DNA of 64,000 nt from Arthrobacter sp. zg-Y820 (GTDB taxonomy: Bacteria; Actinomycetota; Actinomycetes; Actinomycetales; Micrococcaceae): NCBI RefSeq assembly GCF_030142155.1, contig NZ_CP126247.1:2232001-2296000 (forward strand), written 5' to 3'. Shown here piece after piece: positions 1 to 64,000 of this stretch. Under the pieces are notes generated by a model. The model had not been told where the DNA came from and did not search any database. It was given only the letters and a program-made list of their open reading frames with translations. Every line of letters begins with the position of its first letter. The stretch's first letter is position 1. Both the position numbers and the translations under genes were made by a program.

Positions 1-799
1 GGGCACGCCGGCTGCGTGAGGCCGGCTCGCCGGCAGCACCAGCCTCGCCGGCAGCACCAGTCTCGCCGGCAGCACCAGTCTCGCCGGCAGTTCCAGCCTC
101 AACTGACGCCCCGTTCTCGGCTGACGTCCCGGCCCCGCCGGCAGCAATAATGTCCACGAGTTCCTTCATGGCCTGCAGCGAGAGCTGGGAACGGCCGGCC
201 AGACGGTGGGCGAAGGACGCAACATCGGTCCAGAAGTCGGCCTGCGGAATAACCCGTTCAACCAGCCCCAGGCGCAGCGCCTGTTCAGCCGGAACAAAAT
301 CCCCGCTGAACAGCAGATACTTCGCGACCCCGGGTCCGGCGAGACGGACCAGCCGTTCAATGCCGGACAGCGGATACACGATGCCGATCTTGGCCGGAGT
401 GATCCCGAAGACGGCGCGGTCGGAGGCGAGCCGGAAATCGCAGGCTCCGGCCACCTGCCAGGCGCCGCCCAGGCAATAACCGTCGACGGCGGCAACCACC
501 GGCTTGGGGAAGGCGGCAATCGCTTCCTCCCCGGCCGTGACGTGGCCGCCGTCGTGCAGTCCGTTGTCCGGATTGTGCAGGATGGCCCGCAAATCGCTGA
601 TGTCCGCCCCGGCGGAAAAGTCCTCGCCCTCTCCGCGGATGACGACCACCCTAACGCCGTCGTCGTGCTCCAGCGGAGCGAGGACGACGGCGAAGTCCCG
701 CCACATGTCAGCGGTCAGGGTGTTGCGCCGCGCGGGATTGGCCAGCCAAACCGTCGCCACCGGGCCGTCCCGTGTGACCCGCAGGGTCCCCTTGCTCAT
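1..799 (-). CDS. crotonase-fold protein lacking both hydratase glutamates (3' end outside window)
   Basis: Member of the enoyl-CoA hydratase/isomerase (crotonase) family, last gene of the valine-type degradation operon; the C-terminus runs off the window. The oxyanion-hole stretch FSAGADI (about residues 61-67) and the YCLGGAWQVAGACD segment are clear. At the two positions where classical hydratases carry catalytic Glu, this protein has Gln115 and a Pro/Ala (about 135-136), so simple enoyl-CoA hydration is doubtful; an isomerase, lyase or hydrolase role on a CoA ester is possible. Ends in a low-complexity tail of GAAGET-type hexapeptides coded by an 18-bp tandem repeat. The ATG lies 7 bp after the aldehyde dehydrogenase stop. 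Substrate unknown. Confidence 0.85.
   Translation of the reverse strand, partial: MSKGTLRVTRDGPVATVWLANPARRNTLTADMWRDFAVVLAPLEHDDGVRVVVIRGEGEDFSAGADISDLRAILHNPDNGLHDGGHVTAGEEAIAAFPKPVVAAVDGYCLGGAWQVAGACDFRLASDRAVFGITPAKIGIVYPLSGIERLVRLAGPGVAKYLLFSGDFVPAEQALRLGLVERVIPQADFWTDVASFAHRLAGRSQLSLQAMKELVDIIAAGGAGTSAENGASVEAGTAGETGAAGETGAAGEAGAAGEPASRSRRA
26..97. repeat. 18-bp tandem repeat (4 copies) in the crotonase C-terminus
   Basis: Unit ctcgccggcagcaccagt begins at 26, 44, 62 and 80; the two middle copies are identical, the first has one change at its last base and the last is slightly diverged. Being 18 bp, it keeps frame and adds Gly-Ala-Ala-Gly-Glu-Thr blocks to the protein. Confidence 0.9.
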
Positions 800-806
800 C
801 AGAACC

Positions 807-2339
807 TCAGCCGCGCAGCTTGACGTTGATTTGCTTCGTCTGGGTAAACCCGGCCAGCATGCCTTCCAGCGACACCTCGCGGCCAATGCCGCTTTGCTTG
901 TAGCCGCCGTAGGACTGGCCCACCATCTGGCCGCCGCCCTGATTAACCTGCACCCAGCCGGCCTCGACCCGGTGCGCGGTGTTCAGCGCGTTGTCCAGGT
1001 TGTGCGACCAGACGTAGGCGGCCAGTCCGTAGTGCGACTCGTTGGCCATGCGGATGACGTCCTCGGTGTCCCGCCACGGAATGGCGACCAGCACCGGGCC
1101 GAAAATTTCCTCCTGGGCCAGGCGGAAATCGTTGCGTCCGCCGCCGAAGACCGTGGGCAGGTGGAAGTAGCCCTCGGTAAGCGGGCCCTCGTCCGGAACG
1201 GAGCCGCCCAGGATGGTGGCCATGGAACCGCGGCCTTCCTCCAGGTAGCCGCTGATCGAGGAGAACTGGCTGTTGTTGATGACGGCACCCATGTCGGTGG
1301 CCTCATCCAGCGGATCCCCCACGGTCAGCGCGCCGAGTTTGGCCGACAGCCGTTCCAGGACCTCGTCGTAAATGTCTTCATGCAGGAACAGACGGGATCC
1401 GGCGGTGCAGCTCTGGCCCTGGCGGGTGAACCGGGAGGCGAGCAGCAGCCCGTCGATCAGGTCCTCGTCCACGGCATCCGGAAAAACGATGGAGGGGTTT
1501 TTGCCGCCCAGCTCCAGGGAGACATGGGCGAGCCGCTCCCCTGCGGTGCGGGCGACGCCGCGGCCCACTTCGGTGGATCCGGTGAAGGACACCTTGTCGA
1601 CGCCGGGGTGCTCGGCCAGCGCAGCACCGATGATGCTCCCCCGCCCGGTCAGGGCGTTGACCGTGCCCGGAGGCAGGTGCCGGGCACAGATTTCGGCCAG
1701 CAGCAGGATGGTCAGCGGCGCGTCGTCGGCCGCCTTCAGAATCACTGTGTTGCCCGCCGCCAGGGCTGCCGGGAGCTTGAATCCCGCAATCATCAGCGGG
1801 GAATTCCACGGCAGGATGCAGGCGACGACGCCGAGCGGCTCCAGCCGCGTGTACTGCAGCTGGCCCTCACCGGCGGGCAGTGTCACACCCTTGACTTCAC
1901 CGGCGATGCCGGCGAAGTAGCGGAACAAGGCGACCAGGGTGGTCACTTCCGGGCGGGCCTGGGTGCGCAGGGCGTTGCCGGTATCCAGGGCGGTGAGCCG
2001 CGCAAAGTCCTCGGCCCGGGCCTCAATGTCATCGGCGATGAGGGACAGTGCCCGGGAACGGACGGTGAAATGGGCGCTGCGCCAGCCCGGGAAGGCTTCC
2101 CGGGCAGCGGCGACAGCGCGGTCCACGTCTTCGGGACCGGCCGCCGGCACCCGGGCGATGACGGTTTCCCGTCGGGCCGGATTCAGCACCTCACGCCACT
2201 GCCCGGAGGCGGCCTCGACCGGTGCGCCGCCGATCCACATCGGCTGGTCGAAGCCGGACAGGAACGAGCTGTAGTCGGAGCTGTCCGAGGTGCCGGCGGT
2301 GCTGCGTCCGGAGTCCGACGGAAGGTTGAGCTGGGTCAT
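807..2339 (-). CDS. NAD(P)-dependent aldehyde dehydrogenase
   Basis: About 510 residues, usual for the aldehyde dehydrogenase superfamily. Visible are PWN (177-179), FTGSTEVG (252-259), the general base Glu276 in LELGGKNP, the catalytic Cys311 in RQGQSCTAG, and EIFGPVL near the C-terminus. In this operon it would most simply oxidise methylmalonate semialdehyde or a related branched aldehyde, but it is not clearly of the CoA-acylating MmsA type, so the substrate is inferred from context. ATG at 2339 chosen because GAGG precedes it by about 5 bp; the reading frame stays open further upstream only through repeat DNA. The N-terminal 25 residues are Ser-rich and probably disordered. Confidence 0.9.
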   Translation of the reverse strand: MTQLNLPSDSGRSTAGTSDSSDYSSFLSGFDQPMWIGGAPVEAASGQWREVLNPARRETVIARVPAAGPEDVDRAVAAAREAFPGWRSAHFTVRSRALSLIADDIEARAEDFARLTALDTGNALRTQARPEVTTLVALFRYFAGIAGEVKGVTLPAGEGQLQYTRLEPLGVVACILPWNSPLMIAGFKLPAALAAGNTVILKAADDAPLTILLLAEICARHLPPGTVNALTGRGSIIGAALAEHPGVDKVSFTGSTEVGRGVARTAGERLAHVSLELGGKNPSIVFPDAVDEDLIDGLLLASRFTRQGQSCTAGSRLFLHEDIYDEVLERLSAKLGALTVGDPLDEATDMGAVINNSQFSSISGYLEEGRGSMATILGGSVPDEGPLTEGYFHLPTVFGGGRNDFRLAQEEIFGPVLVAIPWRDTEDVIRMANESHYGLAAYVWSHNLDNALNTAHRVEAGWVQVNQGGGQMVGQSYGGYKQSGIGREVSLEGMLAGFTQTKQINVKLRG

Positions 2340-2354: not shown

Positions 2355-2452
2355 CGGGTCGTGCTGGGCCGGTGGTGCTGGGCGGGTAGTGCTGAGCTGG
2401 TCGTGCCGGGCTGGTCGTGCTGGGCTGGTCGTGCCGGGCTTCTCGTGCTGGA
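2355..2452. repeat. 14-bp minisatellite, about 7 copies, between echA-like gene and aldehyde dehydrogenase
   Basis: Unit ctggtcgtgcyggg starts at 2355, 2369, 2383, 2397, 2411, 2425 and 2439. Copies at 2397, 2411 and 2425 differ by at most one base; the outer ones are more diverged. It fills nearly the whole 124-bp intercistronic gap and ends about 15 bp before the aldehyde dehydrogenase start. Confidence 0.9.
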
Positions 2453-5329: not shown

Positions 5330-5330
5330 T

Positions 5331-8153: not shown

Positions 8154-8370
8154 GTGTCAGCTTTTCCATTTCCATCGCCGCCAGCCCGCGAGTCCCGCAG
8201 CCTCCCTCGATGACCTGCCGCGGCGCACCGCACATCGTTTTCCGGACCGCACCCCCGTAGTGGACGGCGGCACCCGCCTCACCTTCGGCGAATTCGAACA
8301 GGCTGTCGCCGCAGCTGCCTCGGCGCTCTCCACTCACGGCGCCTCCCCCGGCGACCGGCTGGCCCTGCCA
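8154..8370 (+). pseudogene. remnant of an acyl-CoA/AMP-forming synthetase N-terminus
   Basis: After a possible GTG start at 8154 (VSAFPFPSPPARESRS) the frame shifts near 8205, and the next frame reads DDLPRRTAHRFPDRTP then VVDGGTRLTFGEFEQAV and [11 protein letters not shown], the characteristic first 70 residues of ANL-superfamily acyl-CoA ligases. Homology stops abruptly at about 8367, where the 3' end of the oppositely oriented Ada-AlkA gene begins. No ATP-binding or later motifs follow. Read as a truncated, frameshifted remnant. Confidence 0.7.
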
Positions 8371-10064
8371 GCGGCTGCCTGCCACAGGTGCATCGCCGCA
8401 TAGGAACGCCACGGAGCCCAGTCCGCGGCACGGGCGGCCAGCGCGCGGTGGGCCGCTGCCTTCGATCCGCCCGCATCGAGCAGGCCGGTGGCTTTCGCAC
8501 CGGCGATGAGAGCAACGTCCCCCACCAGCCACGCGTCGGGATCTCCGAGTACCCGCATGGCGATGTAGGCGGCAGTCCAGGGGCCGATTCCCGGACGGGA
8601 CACCAGTTGGGCACGCAGAACTTCCGGATCGGCCCCCACCTGCACGTCCAGCTCTCCGGCGGCCAGGGCACTCGCCGCTGCGAGGACGGCGCGAACGGCC
8701 CGCCCGGGAAGCCGCAGCGGACGGTCCGGGTCAAGGTCCGCTCCGGGAACAGGCTCGGGCACCGCTGCCGCAATTTCCGCCGGCGCGGGGAACAGCCGGA
8801 TCAGGTCCGGAATCGCAGAGCTGTAGGGCGACCCGGCCAATGCCGCAAGCCGGCTGAGGTGGGTGCGGGCGGCGGCCACCGAGATTTGCTGGCCGACGAG
8901 CGCCCGCACGACGAGCTCCTGCGGATCCACAGCCCCGGGGACTCTGATGCCCGGGGTGCTGGCAACCAGCGCGGCAAGCGCGGGGTCCCCCGCCAGTGCG
9001 GCGTCGACGGCGGCCGGGTCTGCGTCGAGGTCCAGCAAACGGCGCACCCGGGCCACCGCGGGTACGACGTCGGCGGGCGATGTGAGCTCCAGGCGCACCC
9101 GCAGCCTCCAGCCGGCAGCGGATGTCTTTATTGCGATGAGGTCAATGGCTCCGGGGCCCTGCGGAAGCGCGAGTGTCCGGGCATACCGCAACTGCCTGGG
9201 GTCCGTGAGGTCGGCCGTCTCCACCCCCTGAACCGCGCGCACCGCAAGGAACCGGAAAATCCCCGGCGCGTCAAACGGCTGGCGCACCGGCAGATCCAGG
9301 TCGAGGTGCACACGTTCACGAGGGCCGGCGTCCGGCTCCGGCCGGGTGCCCGGCGCCTGCTGGGTGCCCGGCGCCTGCCGGGTGCCCGGCGCCGTTCTGC
9401 GGGAACGGCGGAACCGGGTGCGCAGCTCACCCGGCCGTGCAGCAAACACGTTCTGCACGGTCTCATTAAACTGCCGCACCGAACCGAAGCCCGCTGCGAA
9501 CGCCACCTGTGACATCGGCAGTTCGCTGTCCACCAGCAGCGATCGGGCTGTTTGGGCCCGCCCTGCACGGGCCAGCGCCAGCGGTCCGGCACCAAGCTCC
9601 GCCACCAACAGCCGGTGGATGTGCCGGGGTGTGCAGCCAAGGCGTGCAGCCAAACCGGGAACACCTTCCCGGTCCACGACGCCGTCTGTTATCAGACGCA
9701 TGGCCCTGCCGGCCGCGTCGCGTCGGAGGTTCCACTCCGGAGAACCCGGAGCCGCGTCCGGCAGGCACCGCTTGCAGGCCCGGAACCCGGCCCCGTGCGC
9801 CGCCGCGGAGGTCAGATAGAACGTGACGTTTTTCGGTTTCGGAGTGCGCGCCGGGCACGAGGGCCTGCAATAGATGCCCGTGGAGGACACGGCGGTGAAG
9901 AACTGGCCGTCGAAGCGGGTATCGCGCGCATCGATGGCGCGGTAACGCTGGGCGAAGAGCGGATCGCCCGGGGTGCATGCTGGTCCGCCGAACGAGTCTG
10001 GTCCGGAACGCTTCGGCCTCAAGTCGGTGATCACAGCTCCAGTACAGCATCCCCGGGCCAACAT
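8334..10064 (-). CDS. Ada-AlkA fusion: methylphosphotriester sensor/AraC regulator with 3-methyladenine DNA glycosylase
   Basis: Bifunctional alkylation-repair protein, 576 residues from the ATG at 10064. The N-terminal Ada domain has the zinc/acceptor cysteines in [15 protein letters not shown] (Cys66, Cys70) and ACKRC (about 98-101); an AraC-type helix-turn-helix follows ([19 protein letters not shown]). After a Pro/Gly/Thr/Gln linker of repeated APGT blocks comes Alk[13 protein letters not shown], the helix-hairpin-helix [18 protein letters not shown] and the following GD with the likely catalytic Asp. The last about 14 residues are read from the antisense of the acyl-CoA synthetase remnant, so the tail is not native. 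The true start could lie inside (GTG at 10034). Confidence 0.9.
9335..9391. repeat. tandem repeat in the Ada-AlkA linker
   Basis: Three copies of a gggtgcccggcgcctg-type unit (18-bp spacing) code for the [18 protein letters not shown] linker between the AraC and AlkA domains. Length stays a multiple of three, so the reading frame survives copy-number change. Confidence 0.8.
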
Positions 10065-11716: not shown

Positions 11717-11801
11717 GCCGGCTGGCTGACTGAGGCGGGCTGCCTGAGGCGGGCAGGAGATTCCACCGATCGCAACGGCGGCGGGGCGGCGAGACTTACA
11801 G

Positions 11802-13492: not shown

Positions 13493-14129
13493 GACTAAAG
13501 CCTTTCACCCGGCACTGACATTTCCGTCTCGGAAAAGGCCCAAAACAACCCCAAACAGACCGATTTGGGGGCCCACAAATACCCGTCTTTTTCGACGGAC
13601 TACCTAGCCAGCTTTTTCGACGGACTACCTAGCCAGCGGATCTGGTCCGCACCAGCCAGTCAACTGCCAGCGCCGCCTCGTGCATAAATTGCACAGGGGC
13701 GCACGTCTATCGATCTGGAAGCCGACCGTTCGTGGGCAGCGGTAGGGCGGGATAGGGCGAACGGCAGGTCCCGTGCCCGCGGGCAGAGTGCTCCGGCAGT
13801 CAAGCACCGTGGCGGCGTGGCCGAGAGGCGACTTCAGACGTCACGATGAAGCCGAAGTGCCACTCTCCTCAACGAAAGTGGAACCCGACCTGACGGCCGG
13901 GTTCCGAGACCACAAAGGCCTCCGGGCAAAGGTAGTTGTCGATGCCGAGGTATTCCTGCCAAAGGGACAGGCTCGAAGCATCGCAATGATCGATCCCGCT
14001 TCGATGTAGTTGGACATCGCCACCGAGAATGGTGGCCTTCCAACCTTTGGTTTCCTTGCTGCCTATACGCACGCCGTTGTGTCGCCTGATCTTTGCGGTC
14101 CCCCGGTATTTCCGACCCGGGCGAAGTCT
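13493..14129. other. gene-poor 640-bp stretch
   Basis: No convincing coding sequence. It holds a 25-bp tandem duplication, a stem of 8 bp (GGAACCCG at 13880-13887 and CGGGTTCC at 13898-13905), and overlapping short open frames on both strands, about 60-100 codons, between 13773 and 14171 that match no family I recognise. Base composition is visibly less GC-rich around 14000-14160 than the flanking genes. Could be decayed DNA next to the broken HNH gene. Confidence 0.5.
13587..13636. repeat. perfect 25-bp tandem duplication
   Basis: Two identical 25-bp copies, 13587-13611 and 13612-13636, each containing ttttcgacggactacctag. It lies about 95 bp upstream of the HNH endonuclease start, so it may sit in that gene's promoter region. 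Confidence 0.95.
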
Positions 14130-14551: not shown

Positions 14552-14871
14552 GCGGCGGGCACGGCCGACGACGACGGAGGCTGGCCCGCGACGGGGGACG
14601 GCCCACGACGGGGGACGGCCGACGACGACGGGGGCTGGCCCACGCGCCTGGCTGGCCCACAACGACGATTGGCTGGCCCAGGCACCGGGCTGACCTCCCA
14701 CAACGGCCGGCCGACCTCCGACGACGGGCACAGCCGACGACGCCAGCCGAGCCGCCCGGCGCGCCAACCCACCCCAACCCGCGACTTAACCAGCAGTGGA
14801 CCGGCTCCCCCGCAAAAGCGGAAGCCGGTCCACGCCCGCGACCAAACGCCGGGACATGAGTTGTTGCAGGA
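14552..14871. repeat. GC-rich degenerate repeats between rhaM and the MFS gene
   Basis: This 320-bp convergent gap has no gene. From about 14560 to 14745 it is made of imperfect copies built on acggccgacgacgacgg and ggctggcccacg blocks (for example starting near 14561 and 14611). No hairpin terminator with T-tract was spotted. Confidence 0.7.
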
Positions 14872-16412: not shown

Positions 16413-16997
16413 ATGAGAACCGACGGCGAAGCTACCCGGGCCCGAATCCTTGCGGCAGCACGAACAGAGTTTGCCCGCTACGGATTGGCCGGTGCCCGCG
16501 TGGACCGGATTGCCGCTGAGGCCCGGGCGAGCAAGGAGCGCCTCTACGCCTATTTCGGTGACAAGCGCTCACTCTTCACCGCGGTGCTGGAGGTCAACAT
16601 GCAGGAGACGACGGAACGGATTCCCCGTGACGCCCACGACCTGCCCGGCTTTGTCAGCGCCATGTTTGACCACGCGACGGAGAACCCCGACCACCTGCGC
16701 ATGCTTGACTGGGCGCGATTGGAAAACGAACCCGGGCTGGCTCCCCAAACCCCCTGCGGCCGTCCCGGACCGACCACTGAGGACATCGTCAGTGCCCAGG
16801 AGCAGGGAATCATCGACCCGGGCTGGGATCCGGATGACCTGGTCGTCCTGCTCCTGTCGCTCGCGACAGCCTGGGCGCAGTCACCCCAGTCATTGTTCAC
16901 CGGCGAGCCGGAGGAGGCTTCCGGCTCCCCGCGCCGGCGCGACGCAGCCGTTGCGGCTGCCTGCAGGATCCTGAAACCGAAACCGCACGCCGGATAA
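16413..16997 (+). CDS. TetR-family transcriptional regulator
   Basis: 194 residues. N-terminal helix-turn-helix: ARILAAARTEFARYGLAGARVDRIA followed in sequence by ASKERLYAYFGDKRSLF, typical of TetR. The C-terminal ligand domain resembles the C-terminal TetR_C group with a hydrophobic DDLVVLLLSLATAWA helix. Probably represses the divergent DHA2 efflux gene in the absence of its drug ligand. Confidence 0.9.
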   Translation: MRTDGEATRARILAAARTEFARYGLAGARVDRIAAEARASKERLYAYFGDKRSLFTAVLEVNMQETTERIPRDAHDLPGFVSAMFDHATENPDHLRMLDWARLENEPGLAPQTPCGRPGPTTEDIVSAQEQGIIDPGWDPDDLVVLLLSLATAWAQSPQSLFTGEPEEASGSPRRRDAAVAAACRILKPKPHAG

Positions 16998-17047
16998 AAG
17001 GCAACCGGCCGAGCCCTTTCCTGAACGGAGCGCATCGGCCCCCGCGG

Positions 17048-18118
17048 TCAGGGCTTTTGCAGCAGCTGCAGGCGGCTCACCATCCGGAAGGCGTCCGGCC
17101 GCCTGTCCACGGTCAAGCGGAAGTCGTCGATCGACAGCGGCGAGGTGATGGTCATCCGGACATCGGCATCGCAGAGGACATCAACAACGTTGATCAGCCG
17201 CTGTTGAGCCTGCGCATCGGTGTCGGCAAAGGATGGAAGATCCAGAACCACCCAGGAGTCGAACTCCCGAGACCATTTCAGGTACTCGATCGTTGAGGTT
17301 GGGGTCCCGCACAGCTGGTCGAAGGTGATCCACAGTTCGTTGCCGCGCCGGGCAGCAACCGGAAACTGCCTGCTGCCGACCGTAAGTTCCGAAGCTTCCG
17401 AAGCTTGCGGCAATTGAAGACCGGCGGCGCCCGGCCGGGGGTCCTGTCGGAGGTCCGACTTCAGGCTAATCCAGTGTCCGGACCGGAATCCTGAAACGGA
17501 TTTCCGTGGCCGTTCCCGGTAGTCTTCCGTTCCCTCGAGCCTCAGGACTTCCATGTTGGCCAGAATCAGGTCAATGCCCGGTTCGAACATGTGATGCCAT
17601 TGCGGATCCGGCAGCAGCGACCGGGGTGCGTAATTGGAACTGGCCAGCAGGACGATGCCGGCGTCGAAAAGCGCACGCAGGAGTTTCGTCAGCAGGGTGG
17701 CGTCGGCCGGGTCATGCACATGGAACTCATCGAAGTACAGGAGCTTCAGTCCGGCGGTGAGCTCCCGGACGGCACGCTCGACGGCGTTCGGCTCTCCCCT
17801 GAGCTCATGGATCCGGCGGTGAAGCTGGTCCAGGAATCCATGGAAGTGGACACGGAGTTTCGCCTCGGTGGGAAGGGCCCGGAAATAGGCGTTCAGCAAC
17901 CAGGACTTGCCGCGGCCTGCCTCGCCCCAGACGTAGAGGCCCTGGACATCCAGGCGCGCGGCACTATCGCCCCGTGTCTTGGAACGTCTTATTCGGGGTG
18001 CAAACAGCTCGACGCCGAGGGCCAGGAGCCGGTCCCGGACCACCGTCTGTGCACTGTCCAACGTGAATCCCGCCAATGCGGCAGATTCATCGATAGCTGC
18101 TTCAAGCCGGTCCCTCAC
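17048..18118 (-). CDS. zapE: AFG1/ZapE-type AAA ATPase
   Basis: P-loop ATPase of about 356 residues. Walker A GEAGRGKSWLL, Walker B LLYFDEFHVHD, and sensor region LLASSNYAPRSLLPDP are clear and define the ZapE/AFG1 family, which acts in cell division or quality control of membrane proteins. Start uncertain: GTG at 18118 has GGAGA seven bases upstream; GTG at 18136 is an alternative, and the frame remains open to 18367 only through repetitive C/G-rich DNA. Confidence 0.85.
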   Translation of the reverse strand: MRDRLEAAIDESAALAGFTLDSAQTVVRDRLLALGVELFAPRIRRSKTRGDSAARLDVQGLYVWGEAGRGKSWLLNAYFRALPTEAKLRVHFHGFLDQLHRRIHELRGEPNAVERAVRELTAGLKLLYFDEFHVHDPADATLLTKLLRALFDAGIVLLASSNYAPRSLLPDPQWHHMFEPGIDLILANMEVLRLEGTEDYRERPRKSVSGFRSGHWISLKSDLRQDPRPGAAGLQLPQASEASELTVGSRQFPVAARRGNELWITFDQLCGTPTSTIEYLKWSREFDSWVVLDLPSFADTDAQAQQRLINVVDVLCDADVRMTITSPLSIDDFRLTVDRRPDAFRMVSRLQLLQKP

Positions 18119-18307: not shown

Positions 18308-18380
18308 CCCGCTTCCCCGTCCCCCATCCCCGTCCCCCACCCCCGTCCCCCATCTCCGGTCCCCCATCCCCGTCCCGCAC
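18308..18380. repeat. C-rich 12-bp repeat in the zapE/SDR divergent gap
   Basis: Imperfect copies of a cccgtcccccat unit (about six) fill the DNA just before the short-chain dehydrogenase start at 18398. Strongly strand-asymmetric: nearly pure C/T on the plus strand. Confidence 0.8.
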
Positions 18381-18397
18381 CGCCCGAAAGGCCCTCC

Positions 18398-25120: not shown

Positions 25121-25178
25121 ACCGCTGCTTCTTAACGGCTCTTCCATAACCGCTGCTTCTTGACCGCTGCTTCTTAAC
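25121..25178. repeat. short accgctgcttctt repeats
   Basis: Three copies of accgctgcttcttaa/g start at 25121, 25149 and 25163 in the gap after the LacI stop; the last two are adjacent with a 14-bp period. Confidence 0.8.
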
Positions 25179-25260
25179 CGCCCGCCGGGTGTTACCGGCG
25201 CTTCCCGCTGGCTACCGTGGAAGGACCGGTGCGATCCGGGCGAGCAGAGAGGCGAAGTCC

Positions 25261-25611: not shown

Positions 25612-25775
25612 CGCACGTCCCGGGATTCCAAGATCCCGACAACCAGACCCGAAACCCCAGACCCCAGACCCCCAGGCCCCGGACCCCAAACCCACAGAGC
25701 CCGGACGCGCCGACGCGCCGTCATGCAGCTCACAAAGATCCGCACACTCCCATGTTTACAGCGTAAGCTGGAGCT

Positions 25776-26588
25776 ATGACTCGTACATATATCGTTACTG
25801 GATCAGGATCGGGAATCGGCGCCGCTACTGCCGAGCTGCTGCGCGAACGCGGTTACACAGTGGTTGGCGTTGACCTGCGCGGCGCTGAGGTCGAAGCGGA
25901 CCTGAGCACTCCGGAGGGCCGGCGCGCAGCCGCCGACAAGGCACTCGAGCTGGCCGACGGCCGCGTCGATGCCGTGATCGCCTGCGCAGGCATCTCCGCG
26001 CCCGCGCCCATCACCGTCGCAGTGAACTTCTTCGGCGTCACGGAATTCCTCGAGCTGCTGGCACCGGTGCTGGCCAAGAGCGACGCTCCGCGCGCCGCCG
26101 TGGTCAGCTCCATGGCTTCCCTGCAGCAGAACTCCCCCGAGCTGGTGGAGGCCCTGCTGGCCGGGGATGAAGCCCGCGCCCTGGAAATCGGCGCCGCACT
26201 GGCCGAGCAGGGTCCGCGCGTCGGATACCTCAACTACCCGTCCTCCAAGCGCGCCCTCAGCCGCTGGGTGCGCCGCGCCGCCGTGACCGAGCAGTGGGCA
26301 GGCGCCGGCATCCCGCTGAACGCCGTCGCTCCCGGCACCGTCCTCTCCGCCATGACCAAGGACCTGCTGTCCACACCGGAAGGCCGCCAGATGGTGGACT
26401 CCTCGGTGCCCATGCCGCTGAACGGCCACTCCGAGCCCGTTGTCATTGCCCGGCTGCTGGCCTGGCTGACGAGCGAGGAAAACACGCACACCACCGGCCA
26501 GACCATCTACACCGACGGCGGCGCCGACGCCACCCTGCGCGGCGACGACATCTGGGGCGGGGCCGGCCAGAGCATCTCGGCCGGCTAA
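25776..26588 (+). CDS. short-chain dehydrogenase, 3-alpha-hydroxysteroid dehydrogenase-like
   Basis: 270 residues with YIVTGSGSGIGAATAELL at the N-terminus, ACAGIS in place of NNAG and the active-site YPSSKRALSRWVR. The short distance between cofactor and active-site blocks and the absence of the middle region resemble 3-alpha-hydroxysteroid/carveol-type SDRs. Substrate unknown. The stop codon lies within a 29-bp direct repeat that continues downstream. Confidence 0.85.
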   Translation: MTRTYIVTGSGSGIGAATAELLRERGYTVVGVDLRGAEVEADLSTPEGRRAAADKALELADGRVDAVIACAGISAPAPITVAVNFFGVTEFLELLAPVLAKSDAPRAAVVSSMASLQQNSPELVEALLAGDEARALEIGAALAEQGPRVGYLNYPSSKRALSRWVRRAAVTEQWAGAGIPLNAVAPGTVLSAMTKDLLSTPEGRQMVDSSVPMPLNGHSEPVVIARLLAWLTSEENTHTTGQTIYTDGGADATLRGDDIWGGAGQSISAG

Positions 26589-26637
26589 GCAGCACCTCCG
26601 GCCAAGCAGCATCTCGGCCGGCTAAGCAGCACCTCCG
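26572..26637. repeat. 29-bp direct repeat spanning the SDR stop codon
   Basis: Copies at 26572-26600 and 26609-26637 are identical (37-bp period); each includes ggccggctaagcagcacc, so the second is a duplicate of the last codons plus stop. Shorter partial copies (gccggctaaccagcac type) follow to about 26670, reaching the 3' end of the opposing gene. Confidence 0.9.
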
Positions 26638-26658
26638 CCGGCCAACCAGCACTGCCGG

Positions 26659-27756
26659 CTAACCAGCACGACGGCGGCTCCGGAACCGAGGTTCCCGGGC
26701 CGCCGTTCGCGTTTCCGGATGCCGGACTTCCTGCCGCATAATCCCCAGCCGCAGCGAAAAATAGGCCAAGCCCCCCACCGGAATCGGCAACCAGAACTGC
26801 ACCACCCGCCAGGACAGCACGCCCAGCACCGCCACATGGTCCGGTACCCCAAATCCCACGAGCATCGGCACCAGCACCCCCTCGACCAGGCCGAGGCCAC
26901 CCGGCGTCAGCGGCACGAGGGCCACCAATTTAGCCAGCGAATACGCCAGGAGCAGCTCGCCCGGCTGCAGGACATGCCCGAACGCGGCCAGAAAGACCCA
27001 GAGGGCAGCGGCATCCAGAACGTACCGCAACGCCGCCAGCAGCGCTGCCGCAGCCGGCCGCCGGGGATTCCCGCGGAACATATGCACTTCCGCTGCAATC
27101 GTCCGGACAAACTGCTCGGCTGACTCCGGATGGATCAGCCGGACGGTGCGCGCAATTCCCCGTGCTGCCCGAACGGCACCCTCCAAGTGCCGTTCAAGCA
27201 GCGCCAGGGCCACCAAGGCGAGTGCGAGCAGAACCAGCACGACCGCTCCGGCCGTGGCAAGCGACCGGCCGCCGGCGCTGCCGTCCCGGCCGAAAAGCAG
27301 GCCGGCCGCAAACAGCCCGGCCAGCACCAAGTTGCTTCCGAGCACTTGTATCGTGGCGGCGCTGAGCGCGTTGTCCGCTTGCACACCGCAGCGCGTCAGC
27401 AGGCGGAACCTGACCGCTGCCGCCGTCGCGCCCCCGCCGGGAACAGTATGGTTCACTGCCAAGTCACACAAGTCGATCCGGAACAGGGTGAAAAACCCTG
27501 GACTGTCGTCCCCAAGCAGCACCGCCCGCGTCAACAGGCTGTAGCTGGCCAGAGACGCCGCCTCAAGCAGCAGTGCAAACAGCACAAGAACCGGCGGAAG
27601 CCGCCGCAGTGCCGCGACGACGTTGTCCGACCCCACCAGCTGCGGCAGGACAACGTACTCAACCACCAGCACCACGGCCAGGATCGCCGCCATCCAGCGA
27701 AGCAGGCGGCTGCTTCGCACGCGGCGCCAATCCGCACTCAGGTGGTGCCGGGTCAT
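26659..27756 (-). CDS. UPF0104/lysylphosphatidylglycerol-synthase-type membrane protein
   Basis: Integral membrane protein of 365 residues with about eight hydrophobic helices and the family marks LAVNHTVPGGGATAAAVRF and LVPLTPGGLGLVEGVLV. Belongs to the flippase-like TM domain family (LPG_synthase_TM), here without the catalytic aminoacyl-transfer domain. Likely lipid-related; substrate unknown. ATG 27756 used. A basic tail RRRAG ends the protein within the repeat zone. Confidence 0.85.
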   Translation of the reverse strand: MTRHHLSADWRRVRSSRLLRWMAAILAVVLVVEYVVLPQLVGSDNVVAALRRLPPVLVLFALLLEAASLASYSLLTRAVLLGDDSPGFFTLFRIDLCDLAVNHTVPGGGATAAAVRFRLLTRCGVQADNALSAATIQVLGSNLVLAGLFAAGLLFGRDGSAGGRSLATAGAVVLVLLALALVALALLERHLEGAVRAARGIARTVRLIHPESAEQFVRTIAAEVHMFRGNPRRPAAAALLAALRYVLDAAALWVFLAAFGHVLQPGELLLAYSLAKLVALVPLTPGGLGLVEGVLVPMLVGFGVPDHVAVLGVLSWRVVQFWLPIPVGGLAYFSLRLGIMRQEVRHPETRTAAREPRFRSRRRAG

Positions 27757-42881: not shown

Positions 42882-42970
42882 GCAAGACCCTGTTTCAGCA
42901 AGACCCTGTTTCAGCAAGACCCTGTTTCAGCAAGACCCTGTTTCAGCAAGACCCTGTTTCAGCAAGACCC
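42882..42970. repeat. 16-bp minisatellite, 5.6 perfect copies
   Basis: Unit gcaagaccctgtttca starts at 42882, 42898, 42914, 42930 and 42946, all identical, followed by a 9-bp partial copy at 42962-42970. Located between the DUF3043 stop and the terminator, ending at the first base of the terminator stem. Unit length is not a multiple of three and the array is untranslated. Confidence 0.97.
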
Positions 42971-43002: not shown

Positions 43003-43038
43003 CTCGTCCTGCAACTGCTCCTGCAGTTACACCTGCAG

Positions 43039-44186: not shown

Positions 44187-44258
44187 CTGCACTATTCTCG
44201 ATTTATGGGCAGTACTCGATACATGGGCAGTACTCGATTTATGGGCAGTACTCAATAC
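44187..44258. repeat. 18-bp tandem array containing the start codon of the hydrolase gene
   Basis: Unit atgggcagtactcgatac starts at 44205, 44223 and 44241, with a degenerate partial copy upstream (44189-44204) and ATGGAC beginning the next period at 44259. Copies differ only at the tyr/phe and arg/gln codons. Each copy supplies an in-frame ATG. Confidence 0.92.
44193..44204 (+). promoter_or_regulatory. candidate -10 box for leaderless transcription of the hydrolase gene
   Basis: TATTCT at 44193-44198 lies six bases before ATG 44205, and there is no Shine-Dalgarno sequence, so the transcript could start at the A of the ATG, as is common in actinobacteria. No clear -35 box. Confidence 0.4.
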
Positions 44259-45332
44259 ATGGACAGTTTTGCGGGCGCCGACGGGAACGGCTCGGAGTGG
44301 AAGCCGGACATCCTGGGCGACGGCTACCAGTATCTGACCCTGGAGCTGGGCGAAGATGAGGAAGGGCCCGTCGTGGCCACGCTGGTGTCCTACTCTCCTG
44401 GGCCGCCGCCTCCTCCCACGCTTGGCGGCCGGGCCCGGCGCCTGCTGCACGGCCTGCGGGCTCCCGTGGCACCCGAACCCGTTCACGCAGTCCTCTACAT
44501 CCACGGCTGGAGCGACTACTTTTTCCAGACGGAGCTTGCGCAGTTCTGGAGCCGGCTCGGCGTCGCCTTCTATGCCTTGGACCTGCGCAAATACGGGCGG
44601 AGCCTGCGGCCCGGACAGTCCGAGGGGTTCACCCAAGACCTGCAGGATTATGACGCCGACATTGAAGCGGCGCTGGCAGCCCTGACCAGGCACGTCCGCG
44701 AACACCTTGGCGCCGACACCCCGGTGCGGGTCAGCATGATGGCCCACTCCACCGGCGGCCTGGTCGCCTCGCTCTGGGCCCACCGCCATCCCGGGCGCAT
44801 CGAAGCCCTGATCCTGAACAGTCCCTGGCTGGAGATGACCGGCTCCTGGGTGGTGCGCAACGCAACCGCCGGGCTGCTGGAACCGCTGGCACGGCTGCGG
44901 CCCAAAACGCGTCTGAAGGTTCCGGAAATGACCAATTACTGGCGCAGCATCAGCCGCGAGGGCGACGGCGAATGGGACCCGGACCCGGAGCTGAAACCGC
45001 GCAACAGCTGGCCGATTAGGGCCGGGTGGATCACCGCTGTGCTTGCCGGACACGCGCAGGTGGCCCACGGCCTGGACATTCGGGTGCCGATCCTGCTGAT
45101 GGCCTCGGCCACCTCCACGATGGCCGGCCCCTGGAACGAAGCCATGAAGACCTCCGACAGCATCCTGGACGTGCACCTGATGGTCCAGCGCGGGCTGCTG
45201 CTCGGTCCGCAGGTCACCGTCTGCCGGTTCGAGGACGCCCTGCACGATGTGCTGCTGTCGGCCGGTCCCGTGCGGCGCCGGGTCTACGGCAAACTTGAAC
45301 AGTGGGCGCGCGCCTTCATGCTGAAGGGCTAG
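44205..45332 (+). CDS. alpha/beta hydrolase (serine aminopeptidase/lysophospholipase type)
   Basis: Up to 375 residues. VLYIHGWSDYFFQ (oxyanion region), FYALDLRKYGRSLRPGQ, nucleophile Ser in MMAHSTGGLVASL and a C-terminal EDALHDVLLS with the likely catalytic His. A monoacylglycerol-lipase-like fold; substrate unknown. The N-terminus MGSTRY-MGSTRF-MGSTQY-MDSF is coded by an 18-bp array giving four possible starts (44205, 44223, 44241, 44259); none has a ribosome site. The family proper begins near EWKPDILGDGYQ. Confidence 0.82.
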   Translation: MGSTRYMGSTRFMGSTQYMDSFAGADGNGSEWKPDILGDGYQYLTLELGEDEEGPVVATLVSYSPGPPPPPTLGGRARRLLHGLRAPVAPEPVHAVLYIHGWSDYFFQTELAQFWSRLGVAFYALDLRKYGRSLRPGQSEGFTQDLQDYDADIEAALAALTRHVREHLGADTPVRVSMMAHSTGGLVASLWAHRHPGRIEALILNSPWLEMTGSWVVRNATAGLLEPLARLRPKTRLKVPEMTNYWRSISREGDGEWDPDPELKPRNSWPIRAGWITAVLAGHAQVAHGLDIRVPILLMASATSTMAGPWNEAMKTSDSILDVHLMVQRGLLLGPQVTVCRFEDALHDVLLSAGPVRRRVYGKLEQWARAFMLKG

Positions 45333-48949: not shown

Positions 48950-50524
48950 TTAGTTTCCGAAAGCCGACTGGCACGTCACCTGAGCCGCGGTCTGGCCTGT
49001 GAGGCCGCCCACGTCTCCGGCGTCGGGCATGGTGTTTCCGGTGGTGAAGTCCTGCCCGACCTGCACGCTGACGCCGATGACCAGGTTGCTCGCCACGACC
49101 TGCACTGCGGGAATTCCCAGTGCCGCGGCCACCTGCTGCGCCATTTCAAGGTAGCCCGGGCCGTGGAACACCTGCGTTGCCGGGCTCGGTGCGCCGGTCT
49201 GCCCGCCGGAGGCCGCCAGGGCGAAACCCTCCGAGAGCAGGTAGGCGGCCAGGTCCTGGTCACGGGACTCGGTGCCGGCCTCGTCGGCGCTGCCGGTGGC
49301 ATCAAGGATGGTGACGGGAATCGTTGCCGGATCGAAGAGCGGAGCTTCCTCCGCCGGAGGCGGCGTTCCCTCCGCCGGAGCGGTGCCCGGAGCCGTTTCC
49401 GGTTCCGCCGGCTTGGTGATGTCGCGGTCTTCCACCAACGCGGTGAAGAGCGGCTCGGCTGCCGCTTCGTCCAGCACCAGCCGATTGTTGTCGTACTCGT
49501 ACGGGACAACCGGTGCGGTGACGAAGGCAACCCGGCCCAGGTCCACGTCCTTGAGCCGGCCGGCCAGGGCGATCAGCGAGGAGGCGCTGGTCAGGTCCTT
49601 GTCCACCGTCAGGTTCTGGGTCACGGTTTCGGCGATGGAGTACAGCTTGGGCAGATTCTTGAGCGTGCCTTCGTCCTGGACCTTGCGGACCATGGACGCC
49701 ATGAAGCTCTGCTGCGCGCGGATGCGGCCCTCGTCGCCGCCGTTGCCGAAGCCGTGGCGGGTCCGCAGGAAGGCCAGGGCCTGATCGCCCTGGACGCTGC
49801 TGACTCCGGCGGGGAGGCTCAGGCCGGACAGTTCGTCTTCCACGGGCTGGTTCACGCACACCTCAACACCGCCCAGGGTGTCGGACAGCTCCTTGACCGC
49901 GTCGAAGTCGGCCATCATGAAGTGGTCAATGTTCAGCCCGGTCAGCTCGTTGATGGCCGCCACTGTGCAGCCGGGTCCGCCGTTGCCCAGGGCACCGTTG
50001 AGCTGGCCCAGGTCCATGGCCGGATAGGTGTTGCCGGTGTCCGGATCCGAGCACTCCGGCAGCGGCACCAGCAGGTCGCGGGGGAAGCTGACCACCGTAA
50101 CGTGCGAGCGGTCTGCTGACATGTTCGCCAGCATCATGACGTCGGAGTTGTTGCTCTCCTGGCCCTCGCGGTTATCAGTGCCCAGGATCAGGATCTGCAG
50201 CGGATCGGTGTTGGTGTCCACCGGCACTGCCGCTTCCTGGCTGGCGCCCAGGTTCAGCGGTTTGGTATCCAGGTTGTTCTGCAGGCGGACAACCTGCACG
50301 CCGACAAATGCCAAGCCGGAGACCAGTGTCAGGGCCAGGATGACTGCCACTGCCCGCAGGACCGGGTGCGCGGCGCCGTGGCGGCCCAGGTGGCGGCCGC
50401 CGGGATTGCCGGCCGGAGCCGGACCGGAGGCTGAGTCTCCGGAGCCGGAGTTTCCGGAGGCTGAGTCTCCGGAGCCGGAGTTTCCGGAGGGACCGGCACC
50501 CGTTACGGCACGGCGAGATGACAT
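48950..50524 (-). CDS. LytR-CpsA-Psr (LCP) family cell-wall ligase with LytR_C domain
   Basis: 524 residues. Ser/Gly-rich cytoplasmic N-terminus, one membrane helix (about 56-78: LRAVAVILALTLVSGLAFVGVQ), LCP catalytic domain with ILILGTDNREGQ, VSFPRDLLVPLPE, and FLRTRHGFGNGGDEGRIRAQQ, then a Pro/Glu-rich linker and LytR_C domain (IPVTILDATGSADEA onwards). Links secondary polymers to peptidoglycan. Convergent/tandem to leuA leader region. The N-terminal decapeptide SGNSGSGDSA is duplicated by a 30-bp repeat. Confidence 0.9.
   Translation of the reverse strand: MSSRRAVTGAGPSGNSGSGDSASGNSGSGDSASGPAPAGNPGGRHLGRHGAAHPVLRAVAVILALTLVSGLAFVGVQVVRLQNNLDTKPLNLGASQEAAVPVDTNTDPLQILILGTDNREGQESNNSDVMMLANMSADRSHVTVVSFPRDLLVPLPECSDPDTGNTYPAMDLGQLNGALGNGGPGCTVAAINELTGLNIDHFMMADFDAVKELSDTLGGVEVCVNQPVEDELSGLSLPAGVSSVQGDQALAFLRTRHGFGNGGDEGRIRAQQSFMASMVRKVQDEGTLKNLPKLYSIAETVTQNLTVDKDLTSASSLIALAGRLKDVDLGRVAFVTAPVVPYEYDNNRLVLDEAAAEPLFTALVEDRDITKPAEPETAPGTAPAEGTPPPAEEAPLFDPATIPVTILDATGSADEAGTESRDQDLAAYLLSEGFALAASGGQTGAPSPATQVFHGPGYLEMAQQVAAALGIPAVQVVASNLVIGVSVQVGQDFTTGNTMPDAGDVGGLTGQTAAQVTCQSAFGN
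50431..50490. repeat. perfect 30-bp tandem duplication in the LCP gene
   Basis: Positions 50431-50460 and 50461-50490 are identical; each begins ctgagtctccggagccg. Adds ten residues in frame to the cytoplasmic N-terminus of the LCP protein. Confidence 0.95.
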
Positions 50525-50662
50525 GAGCCGGTCCCCTTCAGTAATTCGTGTTCAACGGTGGCGATTCGCAAGTGAACGTTCGGTAGTGATTCGCGAGTGA
50601 ATGTTCAAAGTGTACGCGGCGACCCTGAAAAGAATATTCAGGGCCGCTGCATTCCTTCGGGG

Positions 50663-52922: not shown

Positions 52923-53392
52923 CTGCGCGTCTCCTTCGGGGCATCCCGGCCCAGGTAGGCGGACAGGAGCTCGCGCTGCAGGCCGAACATTTCCTTTTCC
53001 TCTTCGGGTTCGGCATGGTCATAACCCAGCAGGTGCAGCACGCCGTGCGTGGTCAGCAGCAACAGTTCCTCCTGCATGCTGTGGCCGGCCGTTTCCGCCT
53101 GCTCGGCGGCCACCTGGGGGCAGAGGACAATGTCGCCGAGCACGCCGGCGGGGGTCGGACGTCCGGGGACTCCGGGCCGCAGCTCGTCCATCGGGAAGGA
53201 GAGCACATCGGTGGCGCCGGGGATGTCCATCCATTCGATGTGCAGCTTCTCCATGGCTTCCTCGTCCACCAGGATGATGGACAGTTCCGCTTCCGGATGC
53301 ACGTACAGGCTTTCCAGCAGATAGCGCCCCAGCCGGGACAGTTCTTCCTCGTCCACGGCAACCGCGGATTCATTGTTCACTTCGATGCTCAT
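52919..53392 (-). CDS. ybeY: endoribonuclease YbeY
   Basis: 157 residues with the metal site [11 protein letters not shown] and [10 protein letters not shown]. Processes 16S rRNA 3' ends and supports ribosome quality control. ATG overlaps the phoH stop (ATGA). Operates with era, encoded in the same operon. Confidence 0.95.
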
Positions 53393-54432
53393 TTGGCAGT
53401 CCCCCGTCCTGTCCGGCGGCCGCCGGCGGCCGGATCGCTGTTGCGGCGGGACTCGTCCCATTCGCTGTACGCCGTCACGATGCTGCTGACCAGCGAATGC
53501 CGGACCACGTCAGTGGCGGAAAGCTCGGAGAAGGACACGTCGTCAAGATCGCCGAGGATGTCATGCACGATGCGCAGGCCGGAGGCCGTGCCGCCGGGCA
53601 AGTCGACCTGCGTGACGTCGCCGGTCACCACCATCTTGGAGCCGAAGCCCAGCCGGGTCAGGAACATCTTCATCTGTTCCGGCGTGGTGTTCTGCGCCTC
53701 ATCCAGGATGATGAACGCATCGTTCAGGGTGCGCCCGCGCATATACGCCAGCGGCGCCACTTCGATGGTCCCGGCCGCCATGAGCCGGGGAATCGAATCC
53801 GGGTCCATCATGTCGTGCAGCGCATCGTAGAGGGGGCGCAGGTACGGGTCGATCTTGTCGCTCAGCGTCCCGGGCAGGAACCCCAGGCGTTCTCCGGCCT
53901 CGACCGCGGGGCGGGTGAGGATGATCCGGGAAACTTCCTTCTGCTGCAGCGCCTGCACTGCCTTCGCCATGGCGAGGTAGGTCTTGCCGGTGCCGGCCGG
54001 TCCGATCCCGAACACGATGGTGTTTTCGTCGATCGCGTCGACGTAGTTTTTCTGGTTCAGCGTCTTGGGCCGGATGGTCCGCCCGCGCGAAGACAGGATG
54101 TTCTGCGTGAGGACCTCCGCCGGGCGCTGCGCCGTCTGGTCCCGGAGCATGGTGATCAGCTGCTCCAGGAGCTGGGGCGTGACCTTGGTCTGGCTGCGGG
54201 CCAAAATCCGGACCTCGCTCACCAGCCGGTGCGTGAGTTCCACTACGGGCGCCGGGCCGGTGATCGAAAGCTCGTTCCCGCGCACATGCAGGTTGGCTTC
54301 CGGATAAGCGGCCTCAATGATCTTGAGTGCCTCGTCGTTGGCACCCAGTGACTGGACCATGTGTTCAGTGGAATCAAAGACAATGGTCTGCCGATCCAGT
54401 CCGATGGTGCCAATTCCTGAGGATTCAGTCAT
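53389..54432 (-). CDS. phoH: PhoH-family ATPase
   Basis: 347 residues. Short N-terminal KH-like part ([13 protein letters not shown]), then the PhoH ATPase: Walker [25 protein letters not shown], Walker [29 protein letters not shown]. Linked to RNA metabolism by its partnership with YbeY. First gene of the operon phoH-ybeY-CNNM-era; ATG 54432. Confidence 0.94.
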
Positions 54433-54774
54433 ATATTCGGCCTTCCCAGGCCTTTCATCGCCCCTTTGAAGAGTTTCTCGGTCGTGCCGTGTGTGGTGTT
54501 CGTGTGGTGTTCGTGTGCTGATCGTGCGCTGTTCGCGCCCCGTTCTGGCAGGAAACGCAGTGCCTGCCTTAAGACAGACACTTCAATATTACTTGATGCC
54601 CCCCGCACCCGTCTTCTCCTGTTTTGCGGGCCGGCAGGGATTTGCCGGACTGATCGGTCAGCGCCTGCGGGTCTCAATCGGGTCTCAGTCCGGTAGCAGG
54701 AAGGTCAAGACAGCGGATCCGGCGTTTGGCATGTGCCAAGCTTGAAAGCGACCGTTCAGCGAAGGGAGGACAGA
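54433..54774. other. 342-bp divergent promoter region of phoH and the GerMN lipoprotein
   Basis: No gene. From about 54485 to 54540 it holds short repeats of the gtggtgttcgtgtg type. CAGACACTTCAATATTACTT (54575-54594) is an A/T-rich patch that could hold a promoter. A good ribosome site, GGGAGGA, precedes the lipoprotein start. Confidence 0.5.
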
Positions 54775-59916: not shown

Positions 59917-59962
59917 TTTATCTGCACAGTCTCACCGGGTTTATCTGCACAGTCTCACCGGG
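59917..59962. repeat. perfect 23-bp tandem duplication
   Basis: Copies 59917-59939 and 59940-59962 are identical and include atctgcacagtctcaccggg; a partial copy (atctgcacagt) and three ccgat units stand just before. It fills the gap between DUF3097 and DUF4870. Confidence 0.95.
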
Positions 59963-60030
59963 TACCGCGAGTCCAAGCATTGGCCCCAGGGCATAAGACC
60001 AAGGCGTCCAGAGTCACAAAGGAAACAGCA

Positions 60031-60543: not shown

Positions 60544-60597
60544 CTTGTCCCGGTCCGGCAGCTTGTCCCGGTCCGGCAGCCTGTCCTAGTCCGGCAG
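60544..60597. repeat. 18-bp repeat including the hemW stop codon
   Basis: Two identical copies of cttgtcccggtccggcag (60544-60561, 60562-60579) follow a diverged third (60580-60597) that contains the last codons and TAG of hemW. The downstream copies read as an open continuation of KLPDRD had the stop not been there. Confidence 0.9.
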
Positions 60598-61818
60598 CAG
60601 GCGGCGGACGACGGCGTCGGCGAGCAGGCGGCCCTTGGTCGTGAGCAGCACGCGGCCGGTCAGGGCAGCCCTCGGGTCCACCAGGCCGTCGGCCATCAGG
60701 CCCGCGACGGCGAGCCGGCCGGAATCCTTCAGCCGGGACAGCTCCAGGCCCTCCGCAAGCCGGGTGCGCAGCATGACGTCTTCCACGTACCGGGTGTCGG
60801 CGTCGAGGGTTTCGCGCCCCACCGCCGGCGACTCCCCCGCCGCAAGCCGCTGCGCGTAGGCGGTGGGGTGCTTCGCGTTCCACCAGCGCACGCCGCCGGC
60901 GTGGGAGTGCGCGCCGGGACCGATCCCCCACCAGTCGTCGCTGCGCCAGTACGCCAGGTTGTGGCGGCACTGATCAGCGGGTGTCCGGGCCCAGTTGCTC
61001 ACCTCGTACCAGGACAGTCCGGCCGCCGTCATCATTTCGTCGGCCATGAGGTATTTGTCCGCGTGGTCGTCGTCGTCGATCGGCGGCACCTCGCCGCGCC
61101 GCATCCGCGCGGCCAGCTTGGTGCCGTCCTCGATGATCAGCGCGTAGGCCGAGATGTGGTCCGGCTCGTAGCTGAGCGCCTCCTTGACGGAGACTTCCCA
61201 GTCCGCGAGGGACTCTCCCGGCGTGCCGTAGATCAGGTCGACGCTCACGTTCAGGCCGGCGTCGCGCGCCCACTTCACTGCCTGGGGAACCCGCGACGGC
61301 GTGTGCGTGCGGTCCAGGACCGCCAGGACGTGCGGGACCGCTGACTGCATGCCGAAGGAGACCCGGGTGAAACCGGCGTCGGCGAGCAGCTGCAGGGACG
61401 CGGGGGTGACCGAGTCCGGGTTGGCTTCGGTGGTGACCTCGGCGCCCGGTTCCAGGCCCCAGGCGTCAACGGCTGTCTTCAGGATCCCGGCCAGGTCCTC
61501 GGCGGGCAGCAGGGTGGGTGTTCCGCCGCCGAAAAAGACGGTGCCGAGCTTCCGGTCCGGCAAGCCCGAGGCCTTCAGCGCACGGGCGGCAAAGCGGACT
61601 TCCTGTTCCGCGGTGCCGCCGTAGGCGGCCTGCGAGGCGCCGCCGCCGAGCTCGGTGGCGGTGTAGGTGTTGAAGTCGCAGTAGCCGCAGCGGACGGCGC
61701 AGAACGGGATATGGACGTAAAGCCCGAAGTTCCGTTCGGCTGCGCCGGCCGCGGCCTGTGCTGGCAGGAGTCCGTCGGCGGGTGCCGGGTCTCCGAGGGG
61801 CAGTGCGCTGGGTGTCAC
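60586..61818 (-). CDS. hemW: HemW-type radical SAM heme chaperone
   Basis: 410 residues. Radical SAM cluster motif [13 protein letters not shown] with Cys40, Cys44 and Cys47; [21 protein letters not shown] and [12 protein letters not shown] follow the HemW pattern. Lacks the extra conserved Cys (HNxxY type instead: CRHNLAYW) that marks true coproporphyrinogen dehydrogenase, so heme trafficking is the likely role. GTG start overlaps the lepA stop by 4 bp. Confidence 0.92.
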
Positions 61819-63668: not shown

Positions 63669-63844
63669 TGTGGCGGTTCCTTTACTGTTCACAGGACTTC
63701 ACGCGGCCGCGGCGGCGGGGCCGCGTGCGGGAACCGGCTTCGGCGCGGTTCGTCGGTTTTTCCTGGTGGTTTTAACTGCTGAATTAACAGTCTCCCACGT
63801 TTGCCTGTCCGTGCTGGAACCGCAGAAGGTAATAGCGTGGGGTG

Positions 63845-64000
63845 ATGTCCTTCTCCAACCGTTCTCTTCTTTCCCTTGCCCGCGCAGCCCTTCGCCTGCT
63901 CACCCGTTCCGGCACCGCCTCTCCGACGCAGAGCCGGACCCAGCCCAAGGCACAGCCCAAATCCGCCGGCCGGACGTCGTCGCCGCAGAAACCGCAGTCC
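63845..64000 (+). CDS. unidentified protein, start of gene (3' end outside window)
   Basis: Open frame from ATG 63845: MSFSNRSLLSLARAALRLLT, then a Ser/Pro/Gln/Lys-rich stretch to the window end. Basic, amphipathic N-terminus followed by disorder. In related actinobacteria a PemK/MazF-like protein with a similar N-terminus lies beside lepA; only the visible 52 residues support this and no catalytic part is present, so identity is open. Confidence 0.5.
   Translation, partial: MSFSNRSLLSLARAALRLLTRSGTASPTQSRTQPKAQPKSAGRTSSPQKPQS

Follow-up and report, generated by a model that had tools for sequence, protein, structure and literature searches.

The 64,000-nucleotide window analyzed here, bases 2,232,001-2,296,000 of contig 1 of Arthrobacter sp. 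zg-Y820 (genome of two contigs, 3.79 Mb, 66% GC), carries short tandem arrays that are very probably young minisatellites, born by duplication in place, retained where they do least harm, in some cases expanded, and subsequently decayed. We observed that the repeat units are mutually unrelated, that their multi-copy state is missing from the judged gaps of relatives, that arrays are biased toward gene 3' ends, and that arrays within genes pass an in-frame filter. Minisatellite birth is an ordinary process, in which slippage is part of the story only. In this context, the measured picture is that of a GC-rich bacterium in which sequence between genes, and short segments of proteins, are newly gained by local duplication that is frequent and is filtered by gene ends.

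Arrays were detected with Tandem Repeats Finder (TRF), a score of at least 50 being the counting threshold, genes were called by codon bias, and ten window proteins were compared to Pfam. The genome sample consisted of the window and 400 kb elsewhere (464 kb), and a second set included a further 400 kb (864 kb). Comparison sets were five relatives (G001, G003, G006, G013, and G019), whose DNA in each case aligns over about 48-58 kb of the window with 83-86% identity in aligned parts, and 78 other loci of the pyrD region, each species being represented by one genome; among named records, the nearest pyrD proteins are those of Arthrobacter sp. ATA002 (90%) and APC 3897 (87%). Gap-length limits differ among analyses, and were up to 600 bp for density and units, 30-600 bp for orientation, and 40-600 bp for the hairpin and end-homology set. 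An earlier note on this DNA had listed 13 short tandem repeats with different units; TRF recovered 13/13, with unit lengths corrected for two (18308 and 26572), and eight more places reached the same score (11720, 14688, 25643, 27285, 34099, 49337, 50556, and 54491). Arrays are named below by their first base (Table 1).

In the 464 kb, 56 intergenic arrays were counted vs a mean of 0.5 and at most 2 when intergenic DNA was dinucleotide-shuffled 20 times, and 47 coding arrays vs a mean of 27.9 and a maximum of 36 under synonymous codon permutation, where strong coding arrays (score at least 90) numbered 10 vs 2.7. Thus, the intergenic excess is large and the coding excess modest. Array density was 0.86/kb between genes and 0.12/kb within genes, being therefore unequal inside and outside genes, and also unlike shuffled sequence. 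Intergenic density came to 0.74/kb over 864 kb (84 in 113 kb) and to 0.59/kb when just the last 400 kb were counted (28 in 48 kb); Escherichia coli K-12, in a rough comparison using a longest-open-reading-frame mask instead of the codon model, had 2 arrays in 43 kb of intergenic DNA. Furthermore, the units were multiples of three in 41/47 coding arrays vs 11/38 intergenic arrays of gaps up to 600 bp (chance about 1/3). The proposal that in-gene units are multiples of three and intergenic ones are not therefore holds as a tendency, but not strictly, since the arrays at gene ends at 44197 and 60544 have 18 bp units.

Short gaps of the window, which was picked for its arrays, held 12 arrays in 6.2 kb, compared with 26 arrays in 35.4 kb for the first 400 kb elsewhere (p=0.009). 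Beyond the window, density was above that of 66 other pyrD-region loci (p 0.0016) and not significantly above that of four close relatives (p 0.13-0.37), so that a lineage-specific burst is unsupported. Indeed, arrays of their own, placed with the same bias, occur in other Arthrobacter species, and the earlier note's attribution of the process to one lineage is not supported.

Regarding independence, 22 pairs among the 38 units of the 464 kb shared an 8-mer, vs a mean of 18.2 and a maximum of 28 in 100 shuffled sets. The units are locus-specific and mutually unrelated, and none was common to several loci among these 38 arrays, unlike a MIRU/REP-like dispersed family. Pairing 16 arrays with five relatives gave 80 array-relative pairs, of which 68 had usable anchors; a unit search found at least two recognizable copies of the window unit in the relative's gap in 0/68 judged pairs, and one copy in 12/68. 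For example, G006 and G019 each hold one copy of the 44197 unit, the 59917 unit is single copy in G006 and G003, and the unit of the 42882 array was not found in 5/5 relatives at that gap. In several gaps relatives carry other arrays: the gap of the 2357 array measures 103-111 bp in the window vs 38-82 bp in four anchored relatives, two of which hold different small arrays, and the 11720 gap carries arrays with other units in G013 and G001. The gap of the 50556 duplication exceeds those of relatives by just 3-23 bp. At three places (13587, 14557, and 18308), about 1 kb of adjoining sequence is missing from several relatives too, and array absence there consequently belongs to a larger difference.

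Moreover, gap length in the window minus that in the relative had a median of +29.5 bp with an array (44 pairs) vs -1 bp without (94 pairs; p=5.5e-6), these pairs being non-independent, as they come from 32 distinct gaps, 11 with an array. Within genes, the 50424 array corresponds to a 15-residue insertion in a LytR-CpsA-Psr protein that is missing from 10/10 aligned homologues (11 sequences drawn from the best 120 of 812 matches), including the most similar one, where same-species variants may be merged by 90% clustering. Taken together, independent duplication, which the earlier note had preferred to one spreading element, is supported at most loci, with the caveats at 13587 in G013 and 26562 in G006 that are described below. 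Recurrent hot gaps were also considered: in 138 orthologous gap pairs, arrays were present in both in 6, in the window only in 38, in the relative only in 5, and in neither in 89, which is suggestive at best, gap length being a confounder.

The earlier note further placed most arrays no more than 100 bp from a start or stop, with three including one. Both statements were reproduced, with 10/12 judgeable listed arrays at up to 100 bp (the array at 26 is unjudgeable, its gene crossing the window edge) and three including a start or stop (26562, 44197, and 60544); two lie farther off, 9332 at 613 bp, well inside a gene, and 13587 at 466 bp when measured by the called start. However, the proximity is mostly trivial: in short gaps (up to 600 bp) 33/38 arrays are at most 100 bp from a gene end, yet 76% of such bases are too, and mean distance to the gene end was just slightly smaller for arrays (32 bp) than by random placement in the same gaps (43 bp). 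Gene-boundary attraction as such was therefore rejected.

The real placement bias is toward gene 3' ends and away from promoters, and not toward gene boundaries generally. In convergent, co-directional, and divergent gaps, respectively, this genome had 2.61, 0.99, and 0.39 arrays/kb (1.84, 0.79, and 0.39 over 864 kb), the five relatives 1.29, 0.50, and 0.18, and the 78 other pyrD-region loci 0.78, 0.21, and 0.17, with chi-square p of at most 1.4e-4 in each of the three sequence sets. In co-directional gaps, arrays were skewed to the stop side in the same three sets, with mean relative positions of 0.36, 0.33, and 0.32 (Kolmogorov-Smirnov p 0.057, 0.009, and 0.022). The orientation bias fits a purging of duplications from promoter and start regions, and we infer selection, not mutational preference, as its cause, mutational causes being possible as well. 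A duplication spanning a stop can leave the stop in the first copy; in G013, a 20 bp duplication at a gene end, matching window position 60459, has its stop at the junction (frame read from the alignment).

The first duplication step was addressed through end homology. Slippage between pre-existing repeats predicts a few extra matching bases after the two copies, and a census was made of perfect duplications with units of at least 14 bp and fewer than three copies, pooled from this genome, the five relatives, and the 78 loci. Two groups were removed before counting, namely 10 perfect arrays with N in them, which all came from pyrD loci, and 11 whose period was below 10 bp; seven perfect arrays in shuffled pyrD loci were attributed to N runs, which are present in six loci. 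End homology of 0-3 bp was found in 19/32 young two-copy intergenic duplications (7/11 in this genome, 8/13 in the five relatives, and 4/8 in the 78 loci) and in 3/19 coding ones, the unfiltered counts being 19/34 and 3/19. The 0-3 bp class splits 9/7/2/1 vs about 10/6/2/1 by chance. With 19/32 at chance-level end homology, many first steps look homology-independent. The common assumption that bacterial minisatellites are slippage-born becomes directly testable by the end-homology count. Homology-free short tandem insertions have been reported earlier in eukaryotes.

The following sequence of events probably accounts for the arrays. Stretches mostly of about 11-40 bp would be duplicated in place at scattered sites, in many cases by a presumably homology-independent first step, perhaps the filling-in and rejoining of staggered breaks or nicks, break repair being a possible source of the duplications. 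Duplicates would persist where least harmful, namely 3' of stops, in convergent gaps, and in frame in dispensable protein segments. Some arrays may then grow by slippage or unequal exchange and later decay.

Several observations weigh against this reading. Regarding the first step, ten flanking bases per side of the 19 low-homology cases match at 120/380 (31.6%) vs about 28% expected (p=0.12), three of these cases (60544, L006, and G013) match at 8-9/10 on one flank, and 59917 has an offset partial copy just upstream; hidden imperfect homology accounts for a few of the low-homology cases, not most. Regarding age, degenerate copies escape the unit search. At 13587 in G013, TRF reports a 22 bp x 2 repeat that is degenerate but related to the window unit, and at 26562 the repeat of G006, also degenerate, resembles that of the window by eye. 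Either place may thus hold a shared or a recurrent repeat, but the overall reading does not depend on these two loci. Likewise, the 25643 gap is equally long in G006 and the window, and the 26562 gap nearly so. Regarding placement, the last 400 kb taken by themselves show a weaker dependence on orientation (convergent, 6 in 5.2 kb; co-directional, 11 in 19.6 kb; divergent, 4 in 10.2 kb), with the order convergent > co-directional > divergent preserved. Finally, codon-bias gene calls are predictions, and part of the "intergenic" DNA may code.

End homology of at least 4 bp, in 13/32 intergenic and 16/19 coding two-copy duplications, also counts on that side, as slippage predicts it. Replication slippage of the classical kind, acting between short direct repeats that already existed and both starting and expanding every array, is hence a quite possible account, falling somewhat short of probable. 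Arrays with several copies, 42882 (16 bp x 5.6) among them, cannot arise without expansion, the one copy that G006 has at 44197 is bordered by short CTC-type repeats (by eye), and a MutS match was found in 0/10 genomes checked, this one included. Nevertheless, the chance-level class of young intergenic duplications described above speaks against slippage as the first step in many cases, and of the earlier note's appeal to slippage we retain that it may drive later expansion.

Junctions without homology would also be expected from Ku/LigD end joining of filled-in staggered breaks, an explanation that we consider unlikely. In its favor, Ku was matched in 25/25 same-genus genomes, this one included, and about 6 kb from Ku this genome encodes an ATP-dependent ligase domain, in a 951-residue open reading frame (ORF) taken as a putative LigD. 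In addition, E. coli K-12, one of 14 control genomes and without a Ku match, has no perfect arrays in 400 kb, but its GC content is different and it has MutS. The present genome also has NucS, which to our knowledge does not repair indels. On the other hand, neither Ku nor the PF01068 ligase family was matched in G026, G027, and G032, and G026 nevertheless has 10 intergenic arrays in 15 kb, its single two-copy duplication being without end homology. The Ku-less G027 (2 arrays in 23 kb) and G032 (1 in 9 kb) are low, but so is the Ku-positive G034 (3 in 14 kb), and values between 0.21 and 1.13 arrays/kb were obtained for four Ku-positive relatives within the order. Density in these small samples does not track Ku presence, and from the dense arrays of G026, Ku does not look required, which argues against the most obvious alternative to slippage. 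The Ku match of G013 (contig 1, 174162-174590) is shorter than other same-genus ones (profile 2-154 of 190, open frame of 161 residues), and this Ku is perhaps broken or short.

We also considered a broader generalization, according to which, in MutS-less, NucS-bearing actinobacteria, much new intergenic DNA would come from homology-independent tandem duplication by a Ku-free break-repair or fill-in route, selection would clear promoters and out-of-frame coding sites, and turnover would proceed by duplication and not by slippage at pre-existing repeats; at this breadth, we regard the proposal as rather doubtful.

Stimulation of duplication by terminator hairpins could produce the excess in convergent gaps, where density is highest, and the 42882 array abuts a terminator-like hairpin; moreover, stems of at least 8 are slightly commoner in co-directional gaps with arrays (12/30 vs 74/228). 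However, such stems outside the array are not commoner in convergent (7/16 vs 30/51) or divergent gaps (1/9 vs 30/104) with arrays, in a count that masks the array and thereby also removes possible stem sequence. With no clear association by stem counts, this explanation is quite improbable. That hairpin (42971-43010), between the 42865 stop and pyrD, is kept in 5/5 relatives, its flanking sequence being unconserved. The arrays could instead be functional regulatory or phase-variable switches kept by selection, as 44197 (start codon region), 18308, and 50556 are placed where expression could change; this is very improbable, because the units are unrelated, the multi-copy state was not found in judged gaps of relatives, and arrays are rarest in divergent gaps, where promoters are expected. 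Lastly, a mobile or dispersed repeat family that has spread deserves hardly any credence, since units share no more 8-mers than shuffles and no Rfam family reached its gathering score within the window, and one spreading element is rejected.

Regarding known systems, the closest kind is the bacterial minisatellite, with head-to-tail units of about 10-60 bp beyond chance that are locus-specific and unrelated. Bacterial minisatellites, or variable number tandem repeats, are short intergenic and in-frame genic head-to-tail repeats with a different unit per locus; the present arrays are alike in these features, and were compared between species only. Mycobacterial MIRU-type repeats are intergenic tandem repeats near start and stop codons in actinobacteria, forming one dispersed family; like them, the present arrays are intergenic and near gene ends, and unlike them, their units are unrelated. 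A literature search judged by titles recognized no Arthrobacter repeat study and no bacterial end-homology census.

The archaeal Borg repeats are described as recent, independent, and fast-evolving, with genic units divisible by three compared with 14-38% of intergenic ones, and as perfect, A-rich arrays often with flanking partial repeats (PMC9879509). The likeness lies in independent recent arrays whose genic units are divisible by three and whose intergenic units mostly are not, whereas the Arthrobacter units are mostly GC-rich (read from consensus units), often degenerate, and chromosomal, and the 19 low-homology intergenic duplications lack partial flanks of more than 3 bp. Small tandem duplications in animals have been attributed to double-strand breaks and a Pol alpha-primase pathway (PMC8355091); these are alike in shortness, the pathway being that of the animal duplications.

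Table 1. Tandem arrays of the window, with positions counted from its first base; "earlier list" denotes the 13 arrays of the earlier note.
Array	Position	Strand	Context
18 bp x 4.2	26..100		In a minus-strand gene (called to 799) crossing the left window edge; no stop within window
14 bp x 6.8	2357..2451		Between aldehyde dehydrogenase start (2339) and neighboring stop (2464)
18 bp x 3.4, overlapping a 36 bp array	9332..9421		Deep in gene 8334-10034, away from boundaries; one relative comparable
14 bp x 2.5	11720..11754		Directly 3' of stop at 11716; absent from earlier list
25 bp x 2, perfect duplication	13587..13637		1 bp end homology; long gap upstream of DUF222-HNH gene
17/54 bp and 21 bp, degenerate	14557..14727		Convergent gap 3' of stop at 14551
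13 bp x 4.8 (12 bp in earlier note)	18308..18376		Divergent gap, 22 bp ahead of start at 18398
14 bp x 4.4	25121..25181		29 bp 3' of stop at 25092; two relatives comparable
7/15/22 bp, degenerate	25643..25706		Between ORF end 25611 and start 25776; absent from earlier list
17-20/37 bp composite (29 bp in earlier note)	26562..26669		Fills convergent gap, overlaps stops 26588 and 26659
16 bp x 5.6, perfect	42882..42970		Between stop 42865 and terminator-like hairpin with T-run; convergent with pyrD (stop 43039)
18 bp x 3.9	44197..44267	+	Over start region of gene 44259-45332; several in-frame ATGs
30 bp x 2.2, in frame	50424..50490	-	N-terminus of LytR-CpsA-Psr protein
25 bp x 2.0 (84%) duplication	50556..50606		Upstream of LytR-CpsA-Psr gene; absent from earlier list
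11 bp x 4.1	54491..54535		Upstream of gene 53389-54432; absent from earlier list
23 bp x 2, perfect duplication	59917..59963		1 bp end homology; gap 3' of stop at 59818
18 bp x 3.1	60544..60598		Overlaps stop (60586) of gene 60586-61818

Further observations concern individual places of the window. At 44197-44300, the repeated start-codon region puts several in-frame ATGs upstream of 44259, and the first ATG lies about 6 bp past a TATTCT box, in G006 too, which resembles a leaderless start (motif by eye). Upstream of the DUF222-HNH gene, at 13560-13640, a core resembling ATACCCG..CTTTT..ACTACCT is visible in G013, G001, and G003, and the duplicated 25 bp unit thus overlaps a conserved element. 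Relatives lacking the array at 18308 also lack its neighboring gene (about 17048-18118, ZapE/AFG1-like by eye), the five relatives having merely 113-218 bp between the anchors that correspond to 16997-18398 in the window, where the G013 anchor begins further left. The rhamnose-type region at 19231-25092 (bifunctional aldolase/dehydrogenase) aligns in G013 and G006, and mostly not in G001, G003, and G019. Elsewhere in this genome, eight arrays with periods of 15-57 bp are clustered within 1 kb (L009, 12733-13676).

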